Source of the DNA: a virus
Length of the DNA: 24,346 nt
Direction: 5' to 3' (one strand)
Virus record (IMG/VR): IMGVR_UViG_3300010233_000239
Span: 1-24,346 of that record
Positions within the stretch are counted from its first letter, which is position 1. Each line of letters begins with the position of its first letter. A program made the position numbers and the translations under genes. The notes under the pieces are model-generated. The model worked only from the letters and a program-made list of their open reading frames with translations. It was not told where the DNA came from and searched no databases. This document shows, one piece after another, positions 2,417 to 14,067 of the stretch.

Positions 2417-3198
2417 TAAGGTTTATTATTCAATAAATACTTCCAGCCTTCTTCTGTTTTCTCTAAATCTGCAAATACCGAAGGTGAAAAATCCTTTAAA
2501 ATCGGCACAACCTGATCCATTACTAAACGAATTTCTTCTTCTGCGCCATCTCCGCCCCTCATATTAACTATATGTCGCCACGCACGCAAATTTCCTGTCA
2601 CTAATATAGTTGTTGCTAAACCAATTGGGGCTAGTCTGCGAAATCTACTTGTCCATTTTTTCTTTTCATCAAACGATTTACCTTCTAAATTAACTATTTT
2701 ATTTAACTTTAATTGCACGTTTTCTAAATATTCTACTGTTTCTAAGTATAGTTGATTTAACTCTTCATTTTCTTCTACTTCTTTTGGAAGCCAAAATTTT
2801 AATTGGTCTAGACGAACATAACGTAGACTTTCTTGTGAATAAGCCATTCCTGCACGATGTCTAACCATTTCGTGGGTAAACACTCTACTAACATTATGAA
2901 AAATCATACTGATAGTAGAGTGTTCTAACACGCTGCCATGCGATGATTGAATAATATTTTGGACATATTGTAAATTATCATCCCTTACTCTGGATACATT
3001 AGGATTTGTTCCTTGCGTACCATCATAAGGTGCCCAACTACGGTAACATAGTCTTCCAGCAACTTCTATTAATCCATCAGAAGGTGTTTCAGCATTAGAA
3101 CTCCATCCTTCTTGTTGGATATCTTCCATAAAGTCTGAAAAATTTTCATTAAAATCTGTTTGTGCTACCACGTAAACTTTAGGTTGAACTTGTATCAT
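2416..3198 (-). CDS. thyX: Flavin-dependent thymidylate synthase ThyX
   Basis: ThyX methylates dUMP to dTMP using methylenetetrahydrofolate, FAD and NADPH. The 260-residue protein carries the ThyX signature RHRAGMAYSQESLRY at 113-127 and the C-terminal RAWRHIVNMRGGDGAEEEIR region at about 205-224, matching the family's conserved arginine and dUMP-binding segment. The signature has eight residues between RHR and the serine of QES, one more than the textbook RHRx7S spacing. It is preceded by AAGGA about 12 bases upstream of the ATG, a rather long spacing. With dCMP deaminase (9991-10449) it gives a complete dCMP to dTMP route. It lies between the exported protease cassette and the AAA ATPase in one transcription direction. 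Confidence 0.95.
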   Translation of the reverse strand: MIQVQPKVYVVAQTDFNENFSDFMEDIQQEGWSSNAETPSDGLIEVAGRLCYRSWAPYDGTQGTNPNVSRVRDDNLQYVQNIIQSSHGSVLEHSTISMIFHNVSRVFTHEMVRHRAGMAYSQESLRYVRLDQLKFWLPKEVEENEELNQLYLETVEYLENVQLKLNKIVNLEGKSFDEKKKWTSRFRRLAPIGLATTILVTGNLRAWRHIVNMRGGDGAEEEIRLVMDQVVPILKDFSPSVFADLEKTEEGWKYLLNNKP

Positions 3199-3236
3199 AT
3201 TGGGATATTTTCCTTAGTAAATATGCATTCTATGTC

Positions 3237-4124
3237 TTACAAAGATCGCAAGTAAGCACTAATATTTTCCTTTAGAAAGAAATTCTTAAATGAATGTTTT
3301 GGAGTAGTCTTCGCCGCCTCATATGGAACCGCAAAATTTACGCCATTATCCTCAATAGGAATTTTCTTTAGATCGGGCTCTGATGGCAGAGGGCATTCCG
3401 AGTTAATCGCCCACTCTACATTAGCACTTTTTGCCCAATCAAGAATACGTCGAGCCGGAACACATAAAATGAATGTTTCGCCCGCACCATTAGTTAGAAT
3501 ACCTAACATACGACCATCGTTTAAAAACAATCCACTTCCAGAACAACCGGGAAATCCGGGGCAACTAACTTGATCGTAAACGTGACCGTCAAGTAATCGA
3601 CCATGTTGGGAAACAATTCCCTTACTAACTGTGTTGCTGCCGTCTAAACCTAAAGCGGAACCCACATTAATGACATCGTCGCCCAATGAAGGTAATTTCT
3701 TTTCATTATAAATTCTAAATGATGCGGTTGAAAAATTCTTCTTACGTACCTTTAGTATCGCTAAATCTTCTTCGCGGTTGTACCGAATAACCGAAGCCAA
3801 AATACTATATCGAGCAACCAATCGACCGTCTTCATTAATACTTTGAACGATCTGTGCGTCGTCAAACTCTACAACGGTACGTGGTGTTCCACTTTTCCCA
3901 TCAATAATCTGACGAGTTTTTCTCAACCCCTCAACTACATGTGCAGCCGTTAGTACAAATGTTACATTATCGTCGCCAATTTTTCTAGTAGACAACACGC
4001 CACTACCAGAACCCCTTCCAGTTGTTACGGTTACGGAAACCTCTTGTAGTTTGTCAATCAAATCACCGGCATATGTCGGAACAGGAGCGATAACGAGAAG
4101 TAAAGCGAGCAGAAAACGTTTCAT
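3237..4124 (-). CDS. Exported trypsin-like serine protease (S1 family, HtrA-like domain)
   Basis: A 295-residue protein with a clear cleavable signal peptide (MKRFLLALLLVIAPVPTYA, cleavage likely after residue 19), so it is predicted to act outside the cytoplasm. The chymotrypsin-fold triad is visible: His62 in TAAHVV, Asp120 in EEDLAIL, and Ser195 in GCSGSG, which replaces the usual GNSGGP. There is no PDZ domain after the protease domain, only a tail of about 70 residues. It shares several stretches with the second protease at 5058-5762 (VSKGI, DGR followed by a hydrophobic strand, and a WA segment near the end of the domain), so the two are probably paralogues. The start ATG at 4124 overlaps the upstream stop as ATGA, with TGAGG seven bases upstream. 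Targets are unknown; envelope or surface proteins of the host are plausible. Confidence 0.9.
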   Translation of the reverse strand: MKRFLLALLLVIAPVPTYAGDLIDKLQEVSVTVTTGRGSGSGVLSTRKIGDDNVTFVLTAAHVVEGLRKTRQIIDGKSGTPRTVVEFDDAQIVQSINEDGRLVARYSILASVIRYNREEDLAILKVRKKNFSTASFRIYNEKKLPSLGDDVINVGSALGLDGSNTVSKGIVSQHGRLLDGHVYDQVSCPGFPGCSGSGLFLNDGRMLGILTNGAGETFILCVPARRILDWAKSANVEWAINSECPLPSEPDLKKIPIEDNGVNFAVPYEAAKTTPKHSFKNFFLKENISAYLRSL

Positions 4125-5065
4125 AGTTTAGCCTCAGATCTTTGGGTTAAAATTAGTAATGCAATACCGTCATCAAGCAAAATTTTATCTTTAGATGACC
4201 ATGTTTTGTCTATAGATTGTGATTGACATAGAGGATCTTCACCGGCGTATTTAATTACATTGGGGAAAAATTTACTACAACAAAGCACACCGAGCGGGGA
4301 AAAATAATAAGGGGAATTCACCGAATATCCATATGGTGATGGCATCGCTGAATATCCTAACCTACCAGTAGTTTTAATTTGAAATTTTATAGATTTGTCG
4401 AGATGATCTAACCAAATAGTCTCCTCTGGATAAAACGCGAGGGGAAAATAGAACACGAACAATGGTAAAGTATAATCTATATTGGTTTCCGGTAAAGGTG
4501 AATTATAATATTTGTATAATAAAATTCCCTCATTATATCTATCCCACTTACTGCGCAAGCCAATGCCGTGACGGAATAAGCCCTCTTCCATCATCTTCTC
4601 TTTGTCTATTCCCGCGCTAACCTTTTTTATATGAGCCAACAATTCGGAATCTCCTAATCGTTCGGCTGCTCTTTGCGCTCCTAAATAGAATAGAATAGAG
4701 TCTATAGAAGATACTTCACATGAATATGCCGGATTGCCCTTTAAATCCACGAAATGATATAACCAACCGAAGTGATCCATATTGGCGTTAATCATATTGT
4801 CAAAACCTGTGGCAATCCATTGCTTGGCGGTTTTTTTAGAAATTATTCCGTGTTCGGCAGCAAGAACATAAGCATAAAAGCCGGTTCCGGTTGCTGATAC
4901 TGATACGATTTCTCTATTATCTGATCGGTCTAATGTCCAACACTTAGCAGTTTTCGCTGAAAGTATGCTTCGCACTAATGGCGTCACATAGTCGGGCTTC
5001 ACATTATGCAAAACACACGATAAAAATATCGTAGCCACAATTAACAGCGTAGCTAATTTACTCAT
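4121..5065 (-). CDS. Predicted exported glycoside hydrolase, glucoamylase-like (alpha/alpha)6 barrel
   Basis: A 314-residue protein with an N-terminal hydrophobic segment (about residues 5-19, with a cysteine at 17 but a poor lipobox). Its core matches the glucoamylase-like family (PF10091, related to GH144/GH162 beta-1,2-glucanases) at several points: VSVSATGTGF (54-63), a GWLYHFVD segment (100-107), EVSSIDSILF (117-126), and WDRYNEGILLYKYYNSP around residues 173-189, where the family has a YNEA..LY..ALGSP motif. Known members act on beta-1,2-glucan or related polysaccharides; the substrate here is unknown. It is shorter than typical members and may lack peripheral helices. It overlaps the flanking protease genes by 4 and 8 bases, so the three are likely co-translated. 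An alternative is a non-catalytic binding protein with the same fold. Confidence 0.72.
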   Translation of the reverse strand: MSKLATLLIVATIFLSCVLHNVKPDYVTPLVRSILSAKTAKCWTLDRSDNREIVSVSATGTGFYAYVLAAEHGIISKKTAKQWIATGFDNMINANMDHFGWLYHFVDLKGNPAYSCEVSSIDSILFYLGAQRAAERLGDSELLAHIKKVSAGIDKEKMMEEGLFRHGIGLRSKWDRYNEGILLYKYYNSPLPETNIDYTLPLFVFYFPLAFYPEETIWLDHLDKSIKFQIKTTGRLGYSAMPSPYGYSVNSPYYFSPLGVLCCSKFFPNVIKYAGEDPLCQSQSIDKTWSSKDKILLDDGIALLILTQRSEAKL

Positions 5066-5762
5066 TATATAGCCATGACATATCGTTGTCGTCAGCCCAT
5101 TTAATAATTGTTCTAACCGGCAACATTCCGTATCGAATGTCTTTATTACCTATGCAAATCATACCAACTAGTCGACCGTCTAACAAGAATACTCCTGAAC
5201 CGCTCGCTCCTGACTTGCCGGTAATTGCTAAAATGTCGTATGAGTTTCCACGTACAAATAAGTCGTGCGAAGAAATAATGCCCTTGCTAACCGCATGAGG
5301 TACTTCTGCCCCGGAATTATTGCCTACAGTTAAAACGTCTGTCGCTAGTTTTGGCTTTGTCTTGGATAGGTAAAATTTGGTAGACGTAAAATGAAAGTTG
5401 GATTTATCTAATAATTTAATTACGCCTATATCCAACTTACGATTGTATTTAATTACTTCGCCTGTAACACTATAGGTGATATTATTTTGTGTGTGTAATA
5501 CTTCTACGTGTTTAAATGTGACCTCTCCGGTATATTCGTCTTCAATAATGGATGGCTCAAGACAATGTGCGGCGGTTATAACATAAACCTCATTATTGTG
5601 AAGTACAGTGAACCCACTACCATAACCTTCGGCGTCTTTAACCACTACGCTGGAATTTACAAGATTTTCAATTGGTGAACTTTGAGGAAGGGTGAAATAT
5701 AAAGTAGTTCCAAGTATGAAACCGGCGTAAATAATTACTCCAAAAATAATTTTATTCATCAT
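5058..5762 (-). CDS. Membrane-anchored trypsin-like serine protease (second copy)
   Basis: A 234-residue serine protease with an uncleaved-looking N-terminal anchor (about residues 4-24). The triad is His66 in TAAHC, Asp111 in KLDIGVI, and Ser187 in GASGSG. It aligns with the protease at 3237-4124 along its whole length: IKYNRKLD versus IRYNREED, HAVSKGIISSHD versus NTVSKGIVSQHG, LLDGRLVGM versus LNDGRMLGI, and the KWADDNDMSWL end versus DWAKSANVEWA. It lacks the longer C-terminal tail of that copy. The ATG at 5762 overlaps the release-factor-like gene's stop as ATGA. The two copies probably arose by duplication, with the glycosidase gene lying between them. The N-terminal anchor suggests it stays at the membrane while its paralogue is released. 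Confidence 0.9.
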   Translation of the reverse strand: MMNKIIFGVIIYAGFILGTTLYFTLPQSSPIENLVNSSVVVKDAEGYGSGFTVLHNNEVYVITAAHCLEPSIIEDEYTGEVTFKHVEVLHTQNNITYSVTGEVIKYNRKLDIGVIKLLDKSNFHFTSTKFYLSKTKPKLATDVLTVGNNSGAEVPHAVSKGIISSHDLFVRGNSYDILAITGKSGASGSGVFLLDGRLVGMICIGNKDIRYGMLPVRTIIKWADDNDMSWLYNE

Positions 5763-6154
5763 GGTCTATCCTCTAAAAGTTCTATTTGACCTTTAATAAG
5801 TATGTCGTGTATGCTTGCCCTTTTACCATTTTTGTGATTGATAACTCCCTGATCATTTCCACACATTCGGTACGTTCGTATCTGACTGCCAAATGTAGCG
5901 TCAGACTTAGCCTCATACGCCTTTTGTAAGGATAAGTCTTTTTTATCTTTAATAAATTGATCTAATTTTTCCTGCAAAGACTCCATTGCCGCTTTTTTAT
6001 TTTGTGGTAATGATCTTTCTTTTGTAGCCACGGCTTTAATACCGGTAGGTATATGAATAGCTCTTACGCATTTTTGACATTTGTTCCTATTAGCTCCTCC
6101 GGGTCCATGACCGGAAAATACTTCAAAACGTATATCTTTAGGATTTATTTTCAT
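5759..6154 (-). CDS. Stand-alone class I release-factor domain with GGA instead of GGQ
   Basis: A 131-residue protein consisting of the peptidyl-tRNA hydrolysis domain of class I release factors (PF00472). The segment GHGPGGANRNK (16-26) aligns with the catalytic loop SGAGGQHVNK, IHIPTGI follows as in RF2, and the C-terminal SQIRTY and the helix after it match domain 3 of RF1/RF2. No stop-codon recognition domain (PxT or SPF) is present, so it cannot read stop codons by itself. The catalytic glutamine is an alanine codon (GCT), and the loop is two residues longer. Family knowledge: the glycines are essential, while glutamine substitutions lower but do not always abolish hydrolysis. Likely roles are ribosome rescue or an inactive competitor. 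It overlaps both neighbours by ATGA. Confidence 0.85.
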   Translation of the reverse strand: MKINPKDIRFEVFSGHGPGGANRNKCQKCVRAIHIPTGIKAVATKERSLPQNKKAAMESLQEKLDQFIKDKKDLSLQKAYEAKSDATFGSQIRTYRMCGNDQGVINHKNGKRASIHDILIKGQIELLEDRP

Positions 6155-6414
6155 ACGTGAATATCCTTACGTTGACATCCCTTACTCATTAATACTTGTA
6201 TGGGACAATCACATAGTGTTTTAACAAGATTATCGTCCGTATCAATATAGTTTGACTCGCCACACTCTTCCAACATTTCTCCAATATCAACTTTTCGCCA
6301 TTTAATTAGAGATTGAAGTATTTTACTAGAATCAAATCTAACAGGTAAATTATATCCTAATATGGGGTTTTCAAACTCTTCCGGCTGTAAGTATTTAGCG
6401 TTTCGTTTTAACAT
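6151..6414 (-). CDS. Hypothetical protein (87 aa)
   Basis: Not recognised. The protein is soluble and mixed in charge, with an acidic middle and four cysteines, three of them close together in LCDCPIQVLMSKGC near the C-terminus; a metal site is possible but the spacing fits no known motif. It starts 12 bases after the ribonucleotide reductase stop and overlaps the release-factor-like gene by ATGA, so it is co-translated with it. Its position between a nucleotide enzyme and a translation protein does not by itself indicate a function. Confidence 0.75.
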   Translation of the reverse strand: MLKRNAKYLQPEEFENPILGYNLPVRFDSSKILQSLIKWRKVDIGEMLEECGESNYIDTDDNLVKTLCDCPIQVLMSKGCQRKDIHV

Positions 6415-9696: not shown

Positions 9697-9972
9697 TTAA
9701 ATATTATTTCTTGGCAATATAGTAGCCGCTTTATCTACCGTATTTTGTAGTGATTCTAATCGTTGTTTTATATCCCAATCTGGCACGGCATAATATACGA
9801 ATCCATCAGGCGGATATGGCGGCGTAACAACTTTATATTGAAGGTTTTGTAAAAGTTCGTTTAACCATTTCATTTGATTACGACACTGTACAAGTAGTAA
9901 AAGACTTACTTTTTTAAGATTTTCAACTTGTTCATTAGGGACGTCTTCTCTTACGTCATATTGATTTAGCAC
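9697..9972 (-). CDS. Hypothetical protein (91 aa)
   Basis: Not recognised. The N-terminal half is a predicted helix, with a leucine run followed by CRNQMKWLNELLQNL. A proline-rich, aromatic stretch (VVTPPYPPDGFVYYAVPDW) follows, then a second helix. The start is probably the GTG at 9972, with AGGA about ten bases upstream in the short gap after dCMP deaminase. It precedes the macrodomain gene. No membrane segment is convincing. Confidence 0.72.
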   Translation of the reverse strand: MLNQYDVREDVPNEQVENLKKVSLLLLVQCRNQMKWLNELLQNLQYKVVTPPYPPDGFVYYAVPDWDIKQRLESLQNTVDKAATILPRNNI

Positions 9973-9990
9973 TGATACAATTTCCTCATA

Positions 9991-10449
9991 TTAAATTGGA
10001 TATATTTTTAATTCAGTATGAATAGGATAATCAAATAAATCTAAAATAATTCCCGCATCATCTATGGTTTCCTTCGCAATGGCGAAATCGGCAACCCACC
10101 GTGGGTTATCATTAATTGGTGCAACAATTCGTGTAACCCCGGCTTGGATTAGTATACTTGTACACGGCGCACAAGGTTGAAATGGATAGGTATATACCGT
10201 GCAATCTTCTAAAGTTTGTTCTGCGAAAATCAACGAATTAATTTCCGCGTGGATAATACGGCGATATTTTAATTCGCGATTTTCCAACCAGTCTTTCCTG
10301 TCGGAAGTTTGTCTCGCAAAACCATTATAACCAATTGAAACTAATACATTATCACGGGTAATCACCGCTCCAACTTTGGTCGAAGGATCTTTACTCTTAC
10401 GAGAAATTCGCTCCGCGAGATCTAAAAATAATTTATCCCAATCGTTCAT
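9991..10449 (-). CDS. dCMP deaminase (deoxycytidylate deaminase)
   Basis: A zinc-dependent deaminase that converts dCMP to dUMP, the substrate of ThyX. Counting from the ATG at 10449, the 152-residue protein has the zinc motif HAE at 67-69 with catalytic Glu69, and PCAPC at 92-96. The N-terminal DPSTKVGAVI and GYNGF motifs are typical of phage and bacterial dCMP deaminases. A TTG at 10464 would add five residues, but AAGGA lies seven bases before the ATG and inside that extension, so the ATG is preferred. It still overlaps the upstream gene by 17 bases. The usual allosteric control by dCTP and dTTP cannot be judged from sequence alone. Confidence 0.93.
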   Translation of the reverse strand: MNDWDKLFLDLAERISRKSKDPSTKVGAVITRDNVLVSIGYNGFARQTSDRKDWLENRELKYRRIIHAEINSLIFAEQTLEDCTVYTYPFQPCAPCTSILIQAGVTRIVAPINDNPRWVADFAIAKETIDDAGIILDLFDYPIHTELKIYPI

Positions 10450-10741
10450 TTGATAATCCTTCAATTGCTTTTTCCGCGCCGGTTTTCTCTCGGTTTAACT
10501 TGTTAAGAACACATTGACAAGCAACAATAGCTACTGCGTATCGCTCTCTAACAATTGAAATATTATCATTGATTACCATTCGTCGTAGTCGATATCCATG
10601 ATCAATTTCTTGTGTCCCGCGACCATAACATTGTCGACAACTTCGTTTTGCATAACCTTTAACATTGTCAACATTGATGTTATTTGAGTCACGCACTACT
10701 GTGTTGCCATATTCATCCATTTCCTGCCATCGTAAAATCAT
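10433..10741 (-). CDS. Small protein with a CxxCxGxG-type cysteine motif
   Basis: A 102-residue protein of unknown function. It contains CRQCYGRGTQ (35-44), the CxxCxGxG element of DnaJ-type zinc fingers, and later ACQC (about 74-77), so a single zinc site is likely. DnaJ itself has four such repeats, so this is not a DnaJ. The ATG at 10741 overlaps the upstream stop as ATGA and has AAGG eight bases before it. The coding region continues 17 bases into dCMP deaminase. A protein- or RNA-binding role is possible but unproven. Confidence 0.72.
   Translation of the reverse strand: MILRWQEMDEYGNTVVRDSNNINVDNVKGYAKRSCRQCYGRGTQEIDHGYRLRRMVINDNISIVRERYAVAIVACQCVLNKLNREKTGAEKAIEGLSNERLG
10457..10461 (-). 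promoter_or_regulatory. Ribosome binding site deciding the dCMP deaminase start
   Basis: The minus strand reads AAGGA, then seven bases, then ATG at 10449. The site lies inside the coding sequence implied by the alternative TTG start at 10464, which has no comparable site. Confidence 0.65.
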
Positions 10742-10986
10742 TGTGGAAACCTTATAGTTATTTTTAATTTCTCGGCAAGTTCTTGTAAAATTTTCTTTTT
10801 TGAATCTAATTCACAATCAGGTTGACCGGTAATTCTATCATACTCTTTGGCTTTGCGTAGCAATTCTTCAATTACACTAACAATTCCTTCTGGTAGCGGC
10901 TGCGGTGTAAACGGAATTGAAGGCTGTGGAACATATTTGTGCAAATCTTGTATTGTTTGATTCATGAAGGCTGACATTACACACAT
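10738..10986 (-). CDS. Hypothetical protein (82 aa)
   Basis: Not recognised. The protein has a proline-rich N-terminal third (KYVPQPSIPFTPQPLPEG) and a helical, lysine- and glutamate-rich C-terminal half. The start is uncertain: the ATG at 10986 has GGAG about ten bases upstream and avoids overlap, while a GTG at 11004 would overlap the next gene and has no ribosome binding site. It is coupled to the cysteine-motif gene by ATGA. Confidence 0.65.
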   Translation of the reverse strand: MCVMSAFMNQTIQDLHKYVPQPSIPFTPQPLPEGIVSVIEELLRKAKEYDRITGQPDCELDSKKKILQELAEKLKITIRFPQ

Positions 10987-10988
10987 TT

Positions 10989-11384
10989 TTATCGTACTCC
11001 ACACGATCCGCTAGAACAATTAGTCCCCATAGGTAAAACTTGTTGAGGTAGCAACTGATAATGAACTTCCGGCTGCGTATTTACGGCATTCATACGTTTG
11101 ATATCCCTATCAAGTGTGGTTTTATTTACATTTCCCCACCATCGACCATAGCGGTCTTTGGCTTTAAAAAGTTCCTTATTAGCTTCGCTAATTTTTTGTT
11201 CTAATTCTGCTTCGGTCGAAGACTTCCACTTCTTACCAAATTTATCCCATCCAACGTAAACGGTTACTACCGTAACTGGTGATTCATTTGCCGATTCAAT
11301 TCGTGAAACCGGAGGTTTTTCCTCAACCATATCAAATGACGGAGGTTGAGTTACCAACATTAATGTTAAAAGCAGTGCGTTCAT
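10989..11384 (-). CDS. Predicted secreted protein with a C-terminal cysteine pair (131 aa)
   Basis: Not recognised. The N-terminus MNALLLTLMLVTQPPS is a short hydrophobic stretch consistent with a weak signal peptide or anchor, but it has no lysine or arginine before the hydrophobic core. The middle is a helix (EAELEQKISEANKELFKAKD) followed by RYGRWWGNVNKTTLDRDIKR. The end, NCSSGSCGVR, holds a CxxxxC pair that could form a disulfide outside the cytoplasm. It overlaps the RNA-ligase gene by ATGA, with AAGGA about ten bases before the ATG. Confidence 0.7.
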   Translation of the reverse strand: MNALLLTLMLVTQPPSFDMVEEKPPVSRIESANESPVTVVTVYVGWDKFGKKWKSSTEAELEQKISEANKELFKAKDRYGRWWGNVNKTTLDRDIKRMNAVNTQPEVHYQLLPQQVLPMGTNCSSGSCGVR

Positions 11385-12388
11385 TGCATATTATTCCTTT
11401 CTAATTGTTGACCCATCATCCAATGTTTATTTGTTTGTATATGATCTCTTCGTACAAACTTGCCAACGCTGCGAGAAAACGCTTTATATGGGAACGACGA
11501 AGTAAGTCTAACAACATAACCCTCGACTAAATCGAAATCTAATTCGTCTTGTTTTGCCAATATTCGCTGCGGGAGAAATGCTCCTCTATACAATACATTA
11601 GGAATCTGGATACCCAACAAGCTAAACCACTCAATAGTATCATCCCAACTAAGACATTCATTGCTTTCGCTCCATACGGAGAAACCAAGAAAAAACGACT
11701 TTAAATCATTATACATAATGGAATGTTTTGCGTATAGGTTTTCTCCGCAAATTCTCCAACCATCGGGAATCTCAGATCGTATTTGCGACCAAAAATTTTT
11801 CACCCAAGTGCGACTAGGATGACTACCACTATTAACGCTACGTGCGTGAATGTGATCGTTATACATTGTTGTGTTCTCGCCATCCATTTTTTCCGTCATT
11901 ACAATTTCTTGATTTTGAAAAGACTCAAGTGAAGCCATCATTCTATCATCATCATTCATGCCATCAGACCAGGGTAAATGATAAGTTCGCGGATATTTTA
12001 CATAATGGGTGAATAAATGAAAACTATCTCGAAGTATTTTTTGTACACTGTCGTCATTGAATAATTCTCCGCGTAAACGTTTTCCATTAGGCAAAATGCA
12101 ATTTCCCCATTTATCATAAATTTCATCGTCATATAAGTGTGGTGGCAAAATTCTATGAGAATTGGTTTTTTGTAATAGATGTTCTACTGTAATAATAGTT
12201 TTTTCTGCTTCGATATGACAATTTGGACATAGCGATGCACCGTTATCTAAATAATATCCACCATCTGTAAATAACCTTCTTTCCATAATATGATGAGCGT
12301 CTGCTGCGGGGAAATCACATATAACGCATTTATGACTATCTCTCTCAAATACAGCATTGCGGAATGTGTCCCTACTCATTAACATCAT
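11381..12388 (-). CDS. HNH domain fused to an RNA ligase
   Basis: A 335-residue two-domain protein. Residues 14-65 form an HNH/zinc module: Cys21 and Cys24 in CVIC, DAHHI at 30-34, an asparagine in DNGASLC, and CPNCH at 54-58. Residues 160-320 form a nucleotidyltransferase RNA-ligase core: motif I EKMDGEN with the nucleotide-accepting Lys167, WRICGENLYAKHS at 211-223, FFLGFSVW at 232-239, motif IV VEGYVVR at 288-294 and motif V KFVRR at 310-314. Such ligases seal nicked RNA with ATP, and phage versions repair host-cleaved tRNA. The HNH fusion could cut, or could simply bind nucleic acid. The start is one of three nearby ATGs (12388, 12385, 12379); GGGGA precedes the first. It overlaps both neighbours. 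Confidence 0.87.
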   Translation of the reverse strand: MMLMSRDTFRNAVFERDSHKCVICDFPAADAHHIMERRLFTDGGYYLDNGASLCPNCHIEAEKTIITVEHLLQKTNSHRILPPHLYDDEIYDKWGNCILPNGKRLRGELFNDDSVQKILRDSFHLFTHYVKYPRTYHLPWSDGMNDDDRMMASLESFQNQEIVMTEKMDGENTTMYNDHIHARSVNSGSHPSRTWVKNFWSQIRSEIPDGWRICGENLYAKHSIMYNDLKSFFLGFSVWSESNECLSWDDTIEWFSLLGIQIPNVLYRGAFLPQRILAKQDELDFDLVEGYVVRLTSSFPYKAFSRSVGKFVRRDHIQTNKHWMMGQQLERNNMQ

Positions 12389-12644
12389 AATTTCCCCAGA
12401 GACTCCAAAGTCTTCTCAGATAAGACCCATACACAATTTGGCATTCTGCTTTTTCCCGTTTTAATTTACGGTTACCCTTACAGTATTCAAGTATTTCATC
12501 TTCGATGAGTCTACGATTTTTGTCTACAAATATCAGTAATTTCGATTGTTTTTCCCTATATGATTTTAATAGGTCATTTTCTTTACGCAGTTCTTCAATT
12601 TCTTCTTTTAATTCCTGTATCTCCAAGCCATATATGGGATGCAT
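12372..12644 (-). CDS. Small coiled-coil protein (90 aa)
   Basis: Not recognised by family. Residues 8-45 form a strong predicted coiled coil (IQELKEEIEELRKENDLLK and onward) with leucine and isoleucine at heptad positions. The C-terminal part is basic and tryptophan- and tyrosine-rich (YLRRLWSLWGNY). It starts as TAATG overlapping the upstream stop and runs 17 bases into the HNH-RNA ligase gene. It might be a partner or adaptor of the ligase, but only position suggests this. Confidence 0.72.
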   Translation of the reverse strand: MHPIYGLEIQELKEEIEELRKENDLLKSYREKQSKLLIFVDKNRRLIEDEILEYCKGNRKLKREKAECQIVYGSYLRRLWSLWGNYDVNE

Positions 12645-13157: not shown

Positions 13158-13166
13158 ATTATATCA
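13158..13166 (-). promoter_or_regulatory. Candidate extended -10 promoter (TGATATAAT)
   Basis: The minus strand reads TGATATAAT, a perfect sigma-70 extended -10 element (TGnTATAAT), overlapping the stop codon of the cysteine peptidase gene. TTGGAC lies 19 bases before the hexamer as a poor -35 match. It is placed to start transcription into the intergenic stretch and the genes from 12961 leftward. AT-rich DNA yields such matches by chance, but the position at the largest gap is suggestive. Confidence 0.35.
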
Positions 13167-14067
13167 TACTGAAAAAATCAGGGTCCAATGATTGTAATCT
13201 AAAATCATCGAATGAACTATAAGCCCAACTATCGTCTTGAGAAAGCATTGCTACGACATCAGCCTTACGGGCACGAATAACGCCAACGGGTAACGTTAGC
13301 GAAGGATCACGAAAGTCTTGTAAAGGACCACCCATTACATCTCCCCAGCTATTTAAAATAATAGCATGTGGTTCAATATTTTTAGATTTGTCACCATTGT
13401 CGACTCCGATAATACATAATTGATGACCCCAATTACCTTGTCTGTGGTGATATCCATCTGGCTGAGGAGTCATAGTAAACCCAACATCGCTAGCAACGGT
13501 AACCGGATAAAGATTAGTAATCGCTGCAACTAAATCATCCCAAGTAGAAACTTTGGCTGTTTTATGAACAATGTGTTCTTTTGCTACTGATAAGAATGGC
13601 TGCCAAGGAGTTTTACTTGCGCCCCACTTTTTAGCTATATCCCCGCTATACTTAGGTACATCCTGTGCCGTTGCATCTAGCTCACCATATTGGTTAGCTG
13701 CTTGTGCGGCATAAATACCAACTGAGCCATCGCCAGTGCCCAACATGTTCCCAATTGATCTACTGGTTCCATAAGCGAACGGAGGGAAAATCGGATGAAA
13801 CTCTGCTATATTACCCATAACAATTTGACAACACTCTACGTATTCAGTGGCATTCTTTGCGCCGAACGAAACGCAGTCGCCGATCTCCTGCCCGTAGTTA
13901 TCCGTATCCTTACCTAAAACCTTTCGTGTTAGCCTACATAATTGCATATTGTCCGTGGTAGGACCAGAGCCAACAATATAAATTTGACCAGTTAGTTCAG
14001 ATGGGGCGTTAGATAACGCTTTATCAAGTATTTTTCGGTCAACACCAGCCCAACCAAAATTAATCAT
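13159..14067 (-). CDS. Papain-like cysteine peptidase (C1 family)
   Basis: A 302-residue protein with the papain catalytic layout: Gln60 and Cys65 in GQEIGDCVSFGA (oxyanion glutamine and nucleophile), His215 in GNWGHQLCIIGVD, and Asn239 in IILNSWGD, the counterpart of the papain NSWG motif. There is no signal peptide and no long propeptide, only about 59 residues before the active site, so it may be made as an active or virion-packaged enzyme. It shares a block with membrane-anchored and glycine-rich proteins that look structural or envelope-related. Possible roles are maturation of virion proteins or attack on host proteins. A CGAG element lies eight bases before the ATG, in a GAGTATTAAA context much like that before the partial gene at the left end. 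Confidence 0.85.
   Translation of the reverse strand: MINFGWAGVDRKILDKALSNAPSELTGQIYIVGSGPTTDNMQLCRLTRKVLGKDTDNYGQEIGDCVSFGAKNATEYVECCQIVMGNIAEFHPIFPPFAYGTSRSIGNMLGTGDGSVGIYAAQAANQYGELDATAQDVPKYSGDIAKKWGASKTPWQPFLSVAKEHIVHKTAKVSTWDDLVAAITNLYPVTVASDVGFTMTPQPDGYHHRQGNWGHQLCIIGVDNGDKSKNIEPHAIILNSWGDVMGGPLQDFRDPSLTLPVGVIRARKADVVAMLSQDDSWAYSSFDDFRLQSLDPDFFSMI

Follow-up and report, generated by a model that had tools for sequence, protein, structure and literature searches.

A PDZ-less HtrA-like protease, its putative duplicate and a GH144-related protein encoded side by side in an uncultured phage

When two protease genes and a gene for a glycosidase homologue overlap in a phage, and all three products appear to be exported, do they form a functional unit, or do they merely lie side by side? 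The question arises in a stretch of 24,346 bases ('the window'), the bulk of virus record IMGVR_UViG_3300010233_000239, which is 26,145 bases long and itself only a fragment of a phage genome. Nearly all of its genes lie on the minus strand. They encode, besides the three proteins of interest, a PhoH-like protein, a BCS1-like AAA ATPase, ThyX, an RF-1-domain protein, a large ribonucleotide reductase (RNR), macrodomain-like and dCMP-deaminase-like proteins, an HNH/RNA-ligase protein, a papain-like protein, IMPDH and a glycosyltransferase. The RNR has its closest matches in records of uncultured phages 635 and 462 kb long, so the fragment probably comes from a large phage. In the HNH/RNA-ligase protein (11381–12388), the HNH endonuclease match (PF01844) is N-terminal and the RNA-ligase domain (PF09414) lies behind it.

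The three open reading frames lie where the first-pass annotation had placed them, on the minus strand: protease A at 3237–4124 (295 aa), the middle protein M at 4121–5065 (314 aa) and protease B at 5058–5762 (234 aa). B and M overlap by 8 bases, and M and A by 4. That annotation took the overlaps to mean that the three proteins are made together, a deduction that is not supported, since overlaps are unspecific here: 23 of the 40 junctions in the window have one. The chain of overlaps also runs on upstream, by 4 bases from B into the gene for the RF-1-domain protein (5759–6154, minus strand; 131 aa; PF00472, 4.7e-20) and then into an open reading frame at 6151–6414, and the trio is thus no delimited unit. 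A, M and B are very likely co-transcribed, their neighbours included; scans for promoters and terminators gave results close to chance. The RF-1-domain protein has GGA in place of the GGQ motif (HGPGGANRNK), and the usual catalytic glutamine is missing.

Protease A matches Trypsin_2 in Pfam (1.5e-17), with its catalytic triad, H62-D120-S195, intact. Its N-terminus is hydrophobic and of the signal-peptide type (MKRFLLALLLVIAPVPTYAG), judged, like those of B and M, from hydrophobicity and motif only. An AlphaFold model built from an alignment of 52 sequences is confident (pLDDT 87.6), and Foldseek finds DegQ, HtrA, MucD and DegP as its nearest PDB entries. The best NCBIfam match is degP_htrA_DO, at a score far under the cut-off. 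On the strength of Trypsin_2 and the triad, A and B both belong to the trypsin-like serine proteases (PA clan, S1). Assignment of A to the S1C (HtrA/Deg) family is partial: the protease domain is closest to HtrA/Deg, but the one or two C-terminal PDZ domains that characterize the family are lacking. Pfam detects no PDZ domain in A, which ends ~50 residues past the protease domain in a tail of low confidence in the AlphaFold model.

Relatives of A are numerous in viral contigs. Two scans of IMG/VR confirmed 325 and 380 places, and sequences were fetched for the best 80 of each. The His-Asp-Ser triad is intact in all 82 family sequences of the first fetched set, and a hydrophobic N-terminal segment is present in all 111 members scored; a tail motif, FPxL[IL], is confined to roughly half of the members. 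The gene is usually single-copy, and its neighbourhood changes from phage to phage: across 120 de-replicated loci the neighbours include terminase and portal genes, RecA-like proteins, DUF1501 proteins, and RNR or dCMP deaminase. Such variety is more what one would expect of an accessory gene that functions on its own than of a fixed module. Elsewhere the family is scarce. Searches of 50,697 phage records returned no match to A, to B or to family member L058, and one weak match to another member, L036. Among ~85,000 GTDB species genomes only six MAG contigs matched, under unrelated taxonomic labels; three of them (L158, L160 and L161) carry several phage neighbour genes in common and are likely misbinned phage contigs. 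With phage genes on several contigs, the MAG matches were dropped as evidence of hosts. We found no paper on this protease family in phages in the open literature. That hundreds of uncultured phages of diverse kinds carry this conserved protease, predicted to be exported, while cultured phages and bacterial genomes nearly lack it, points towards a step of infection, directed at the envelope, which the cultured model phages do not display.

Two neighbours deserve separate mention. A DUF1501 protein is encoded immediately after the protease in several phages (at 2563–3810 in locus L027, for example, and in the L036 contig), which hints at planctomycete-like hosts for some of them. And in locus L003, an open reading frame at 2655–4130, adjoining an AAA ATPase, resembles by eye a TROVE/Ro60-type protein.

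Protease B also matches Trypsin_2 (1.5e-15) and retains its triad, H66-D111-S187, so that the earlier description of two trypsin-like serine proteases with intact triads is borne out by profile matches and residue mapping alike. Its long N-terminal hydrophobic segment is of the signal-anchor type, and the C-terminal tail of A is absent. The proposal that one protease has a signal peptide and the other an anchor agrees with these N-termini, and hydrophobic segments suited to export or anchoring were found, as had been proposed, in all three proteins. A and B are 34% identical and share 14 residues that are rare in the family, against nine for the next-best member. A quick tree places B as sister to A with moderate support (82); the branch leading to B is long (9.7), and the placement therefore leans on the shared rare residues together with that support. 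B is best read from these data as a fast-diverging duplicate of A, their likeness being that of paralogues. Protease pairs are rare in phages, as the first reading had it. Two copies occur in two of the 120 loci, the window and L124, and among 50 virus records searched whole, one besides the window (that of L124) has a second convincing copy, three other candidates being weak and short. L124 is syntenic with the window, sharing the order C1-like protein, dCMP-deaminase, protease, macrodomain, PhoH. Its proteases, at 9920–10867 and 11703–12452, are separated by small unrelated genes, with no M; the second copy falls elsewhere in the quick tree, likewise on a long branch, and is of unsure origin.

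The middle protein was harder to place. M matches nothing in Pfam, PHROG or NCBIfam, and direct searches with it found nothing in phages, viral contigs, species genomes or the related protease loci. One weak PDB match, to the GH144 beta-1,2-glucanase XCC2207 (E 0.056), led us to build a profile from seven bacterial GH144-like open reading frames, and this settled the homology: run against 2,558 proteins, the profile gives M 48.7 bits (E 6e-14), the next best protein having an E of 0.37. Three residues of XCC2207 (XcSGL), E239, F286 and Y367, define the SGL clan (GH-S), whose catalytic residues have been proposed (PMC12102758). Numbered through the solved structures, they correspond in M to E179, F203 and Y247; E179, which corresponds also to CpSGL E211, occupies the general acid position, and D122 lies at the site of CpSGL E142, the proposed general base. 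M is, by profile and residues, a real GH144/SGL-clan homologue. The annotation of M as a PF10091-type glycosidase accordingly stands as far as the (alpha/alpha)6-barrel clan of PF10091 and GH144 is concerned; it fails for the Pfam family itself, since M falls below the PF10091 (Glycoamylase) cut-off of 27 bits and is not matched. The N-terminal signal of M ends in a plausible lipobox (IFLSC, Cys17), which makes M a probable lipoprotein.

Whether M is an enzyme is less certain. At 314 residues it is ~100 shorter than the bacterial GH144-like proteins (~440), lacking the C-terminal helix as well as a stretch inside the barrel, in the region of the YW.N helix. Homology extends across most of the barrel apart from that one missing segment, and a single-sequence AlphaFold model reached a pLDDT of only 37. 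Given these losses M may be inactive, and a decayed or repurposed, non-catalytic relative of GH144, serving as a sugar-binding or structural lipoprotein, is a serious if tentative alternative. The retention of a mere 19 of the 68 columns invariant in the bacterial relatives speaks for it as well, but E179, D122, F203 and Y247 are all among the residues kept, and the reading frame is intact. Viral relatives of M are apparently very rare. A scan of viral sequences with bacterial GH144 patterns found none, and two unannotated human-fecal records that matched such patterns, one of them marked UNVERIFIED, were not used. A GH144-like gene was found in one of the 50 protease-bearing virus records, the 176-kb contig IMGVR_UViG_3300010373_001364 (L189), so that both virus-encoded examples found come from phages with the protease.

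Taken together, the observations are best explained, we believe with moderate confidence, by a virus-restricted, exported, PDZ-less HtrA-type protease, A; a duplicate of it, B; and a separately acquired M. A would be a free-standing host-takeover gene of large uncultured phages. Once its signal had been removed, the protease would work in the periplasm or the envelope of the host, cutting envelope proteins there, those of the host or perhaps exported proteins of the phage. In the present lineage A would have been duplicated, and B would have diverged fast, losing the tail and keeping a membrane anchor, and would now cut such proteins at the membrane, its specificity altered. M would be specific to the lineage, most likely a separate acquisition; anchored by lipid, it could possibly cleave periplasmic beta-1,2-glucans. 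A bolder version supposes that large uncultured phages have in common a virus-only family of HtrA proteases, not described before, which are exported, lack PDZ domains and remodel the envelope of the host, and that the present lineage has widened it to a set of two proteases and a beta-1,2-glucanase directed against periplasmic proteins and osmoregulated glucans; as a whole, this is in our estimation unlikely.

The HtrA-like fold invites another interpretation of what the proteases do. They might mimic the host's own HtrA/Deg quality control, removing misfolded periplasmic proteins so that the cell survives until lysis. Since the nearest solved folds are those of HtrA/Deg proteins, and the family occurs in large, gene-rich phages and consists of proteins predicted to be exported, the idea has some appeal; the PDZ domains are missing, however, nothing suggests the cage architecture of HtrA, and the link amounts to fold and low identity (~20–25%) only. 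We regard such mimicry as rather improbable.

Somewhat more doubtful is a true functional cassette, in which the two proteases and the glycosidase would cooperate on the host envelope, to the benefit of the phage in lysis or in blocking superinfection, and which would be rare because it was assembled recently. It would account for the 8- and 4-base overlaps, the common strand and the export or anchor segments of all three proteins. The survey of related genomes, which the first-pass annotation had itself named as a test that could refute it, speaks otherwise. In the 50 related virus records that were searched over their full length the A-M-B trio is nowhere to be found; it was seen in the window phage only, and L124 has two proteases and no M. 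A shared operon we rejected as proof of a unit, overlaps being common throughout the window. It follows from these results that the trio is a local arrangement, and the three-gene functional unit of the first-pass annotation is not supported; a joint function of A, M and B is possible yet unsupported.

The sole recurring partner of the serine protease across loci is the papain-like protein, a cysteine-peptidase homologue with C1-type motifs, encoded in the window at 13159–14067 (minus strand). It has no Pfam or PHROG match; its family cluster is encoded close to the serine protease in the window and in ten other fetched loci (L117, L143, L077 and L012 among them), and within it C65 (GDC) and H215 are invariant and N239 (NSWG) nearly so. 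Prohead proteases act in the cytoplasm. That the serine proteases are not directed at the host at all and mature exported or virion proteins of the phage is very unlikely, for although the gene immediately precedes terminase and portal genes in ~11 loci and adjoins the papain-like gene in others, these proteases, unlike the cytoplasmic prohead proteases, carry N-terminal signals, and most of their contexts are not structural.

How do these proteins compare with those already known? Among cultured phages, profiles of PHROG 9683 ('protease') and PHROG 11383 match A weakly, and the former also B; at the level of sequence the likeness shrinks to the single weak match of L036. The GH144-like protein of L189 is, like M, compact and virus-encoded in a protease-bearing phage; it differs in having no evident signal, in lying 81 kb from its protease gene and in being only ~20% identical to M. 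The bacterial enzymes of GH144 and clan GH-S, XcSGL (XCC2207) and CpSGL, align collinearly with M, which keeps the clan and acidic residues; M is 21–28% identical to them, ~100 residues shorter and probably a lipoprotein. Protease A, finally, has with the HtrA/Deg proteins of S1C (DegQ, DegS, MucD and bacterial HtrA) a common protease-domain fold (Foldseek E ~1e-11; TM scores, by target, of up to 0.7–0.8), the His-Asp-Ser triad and export, which for A is predicted. It departs from them in being phage-encoded and 20–25% identical, and in carrying, in place of PDZ domains, a conserved tail of its own.
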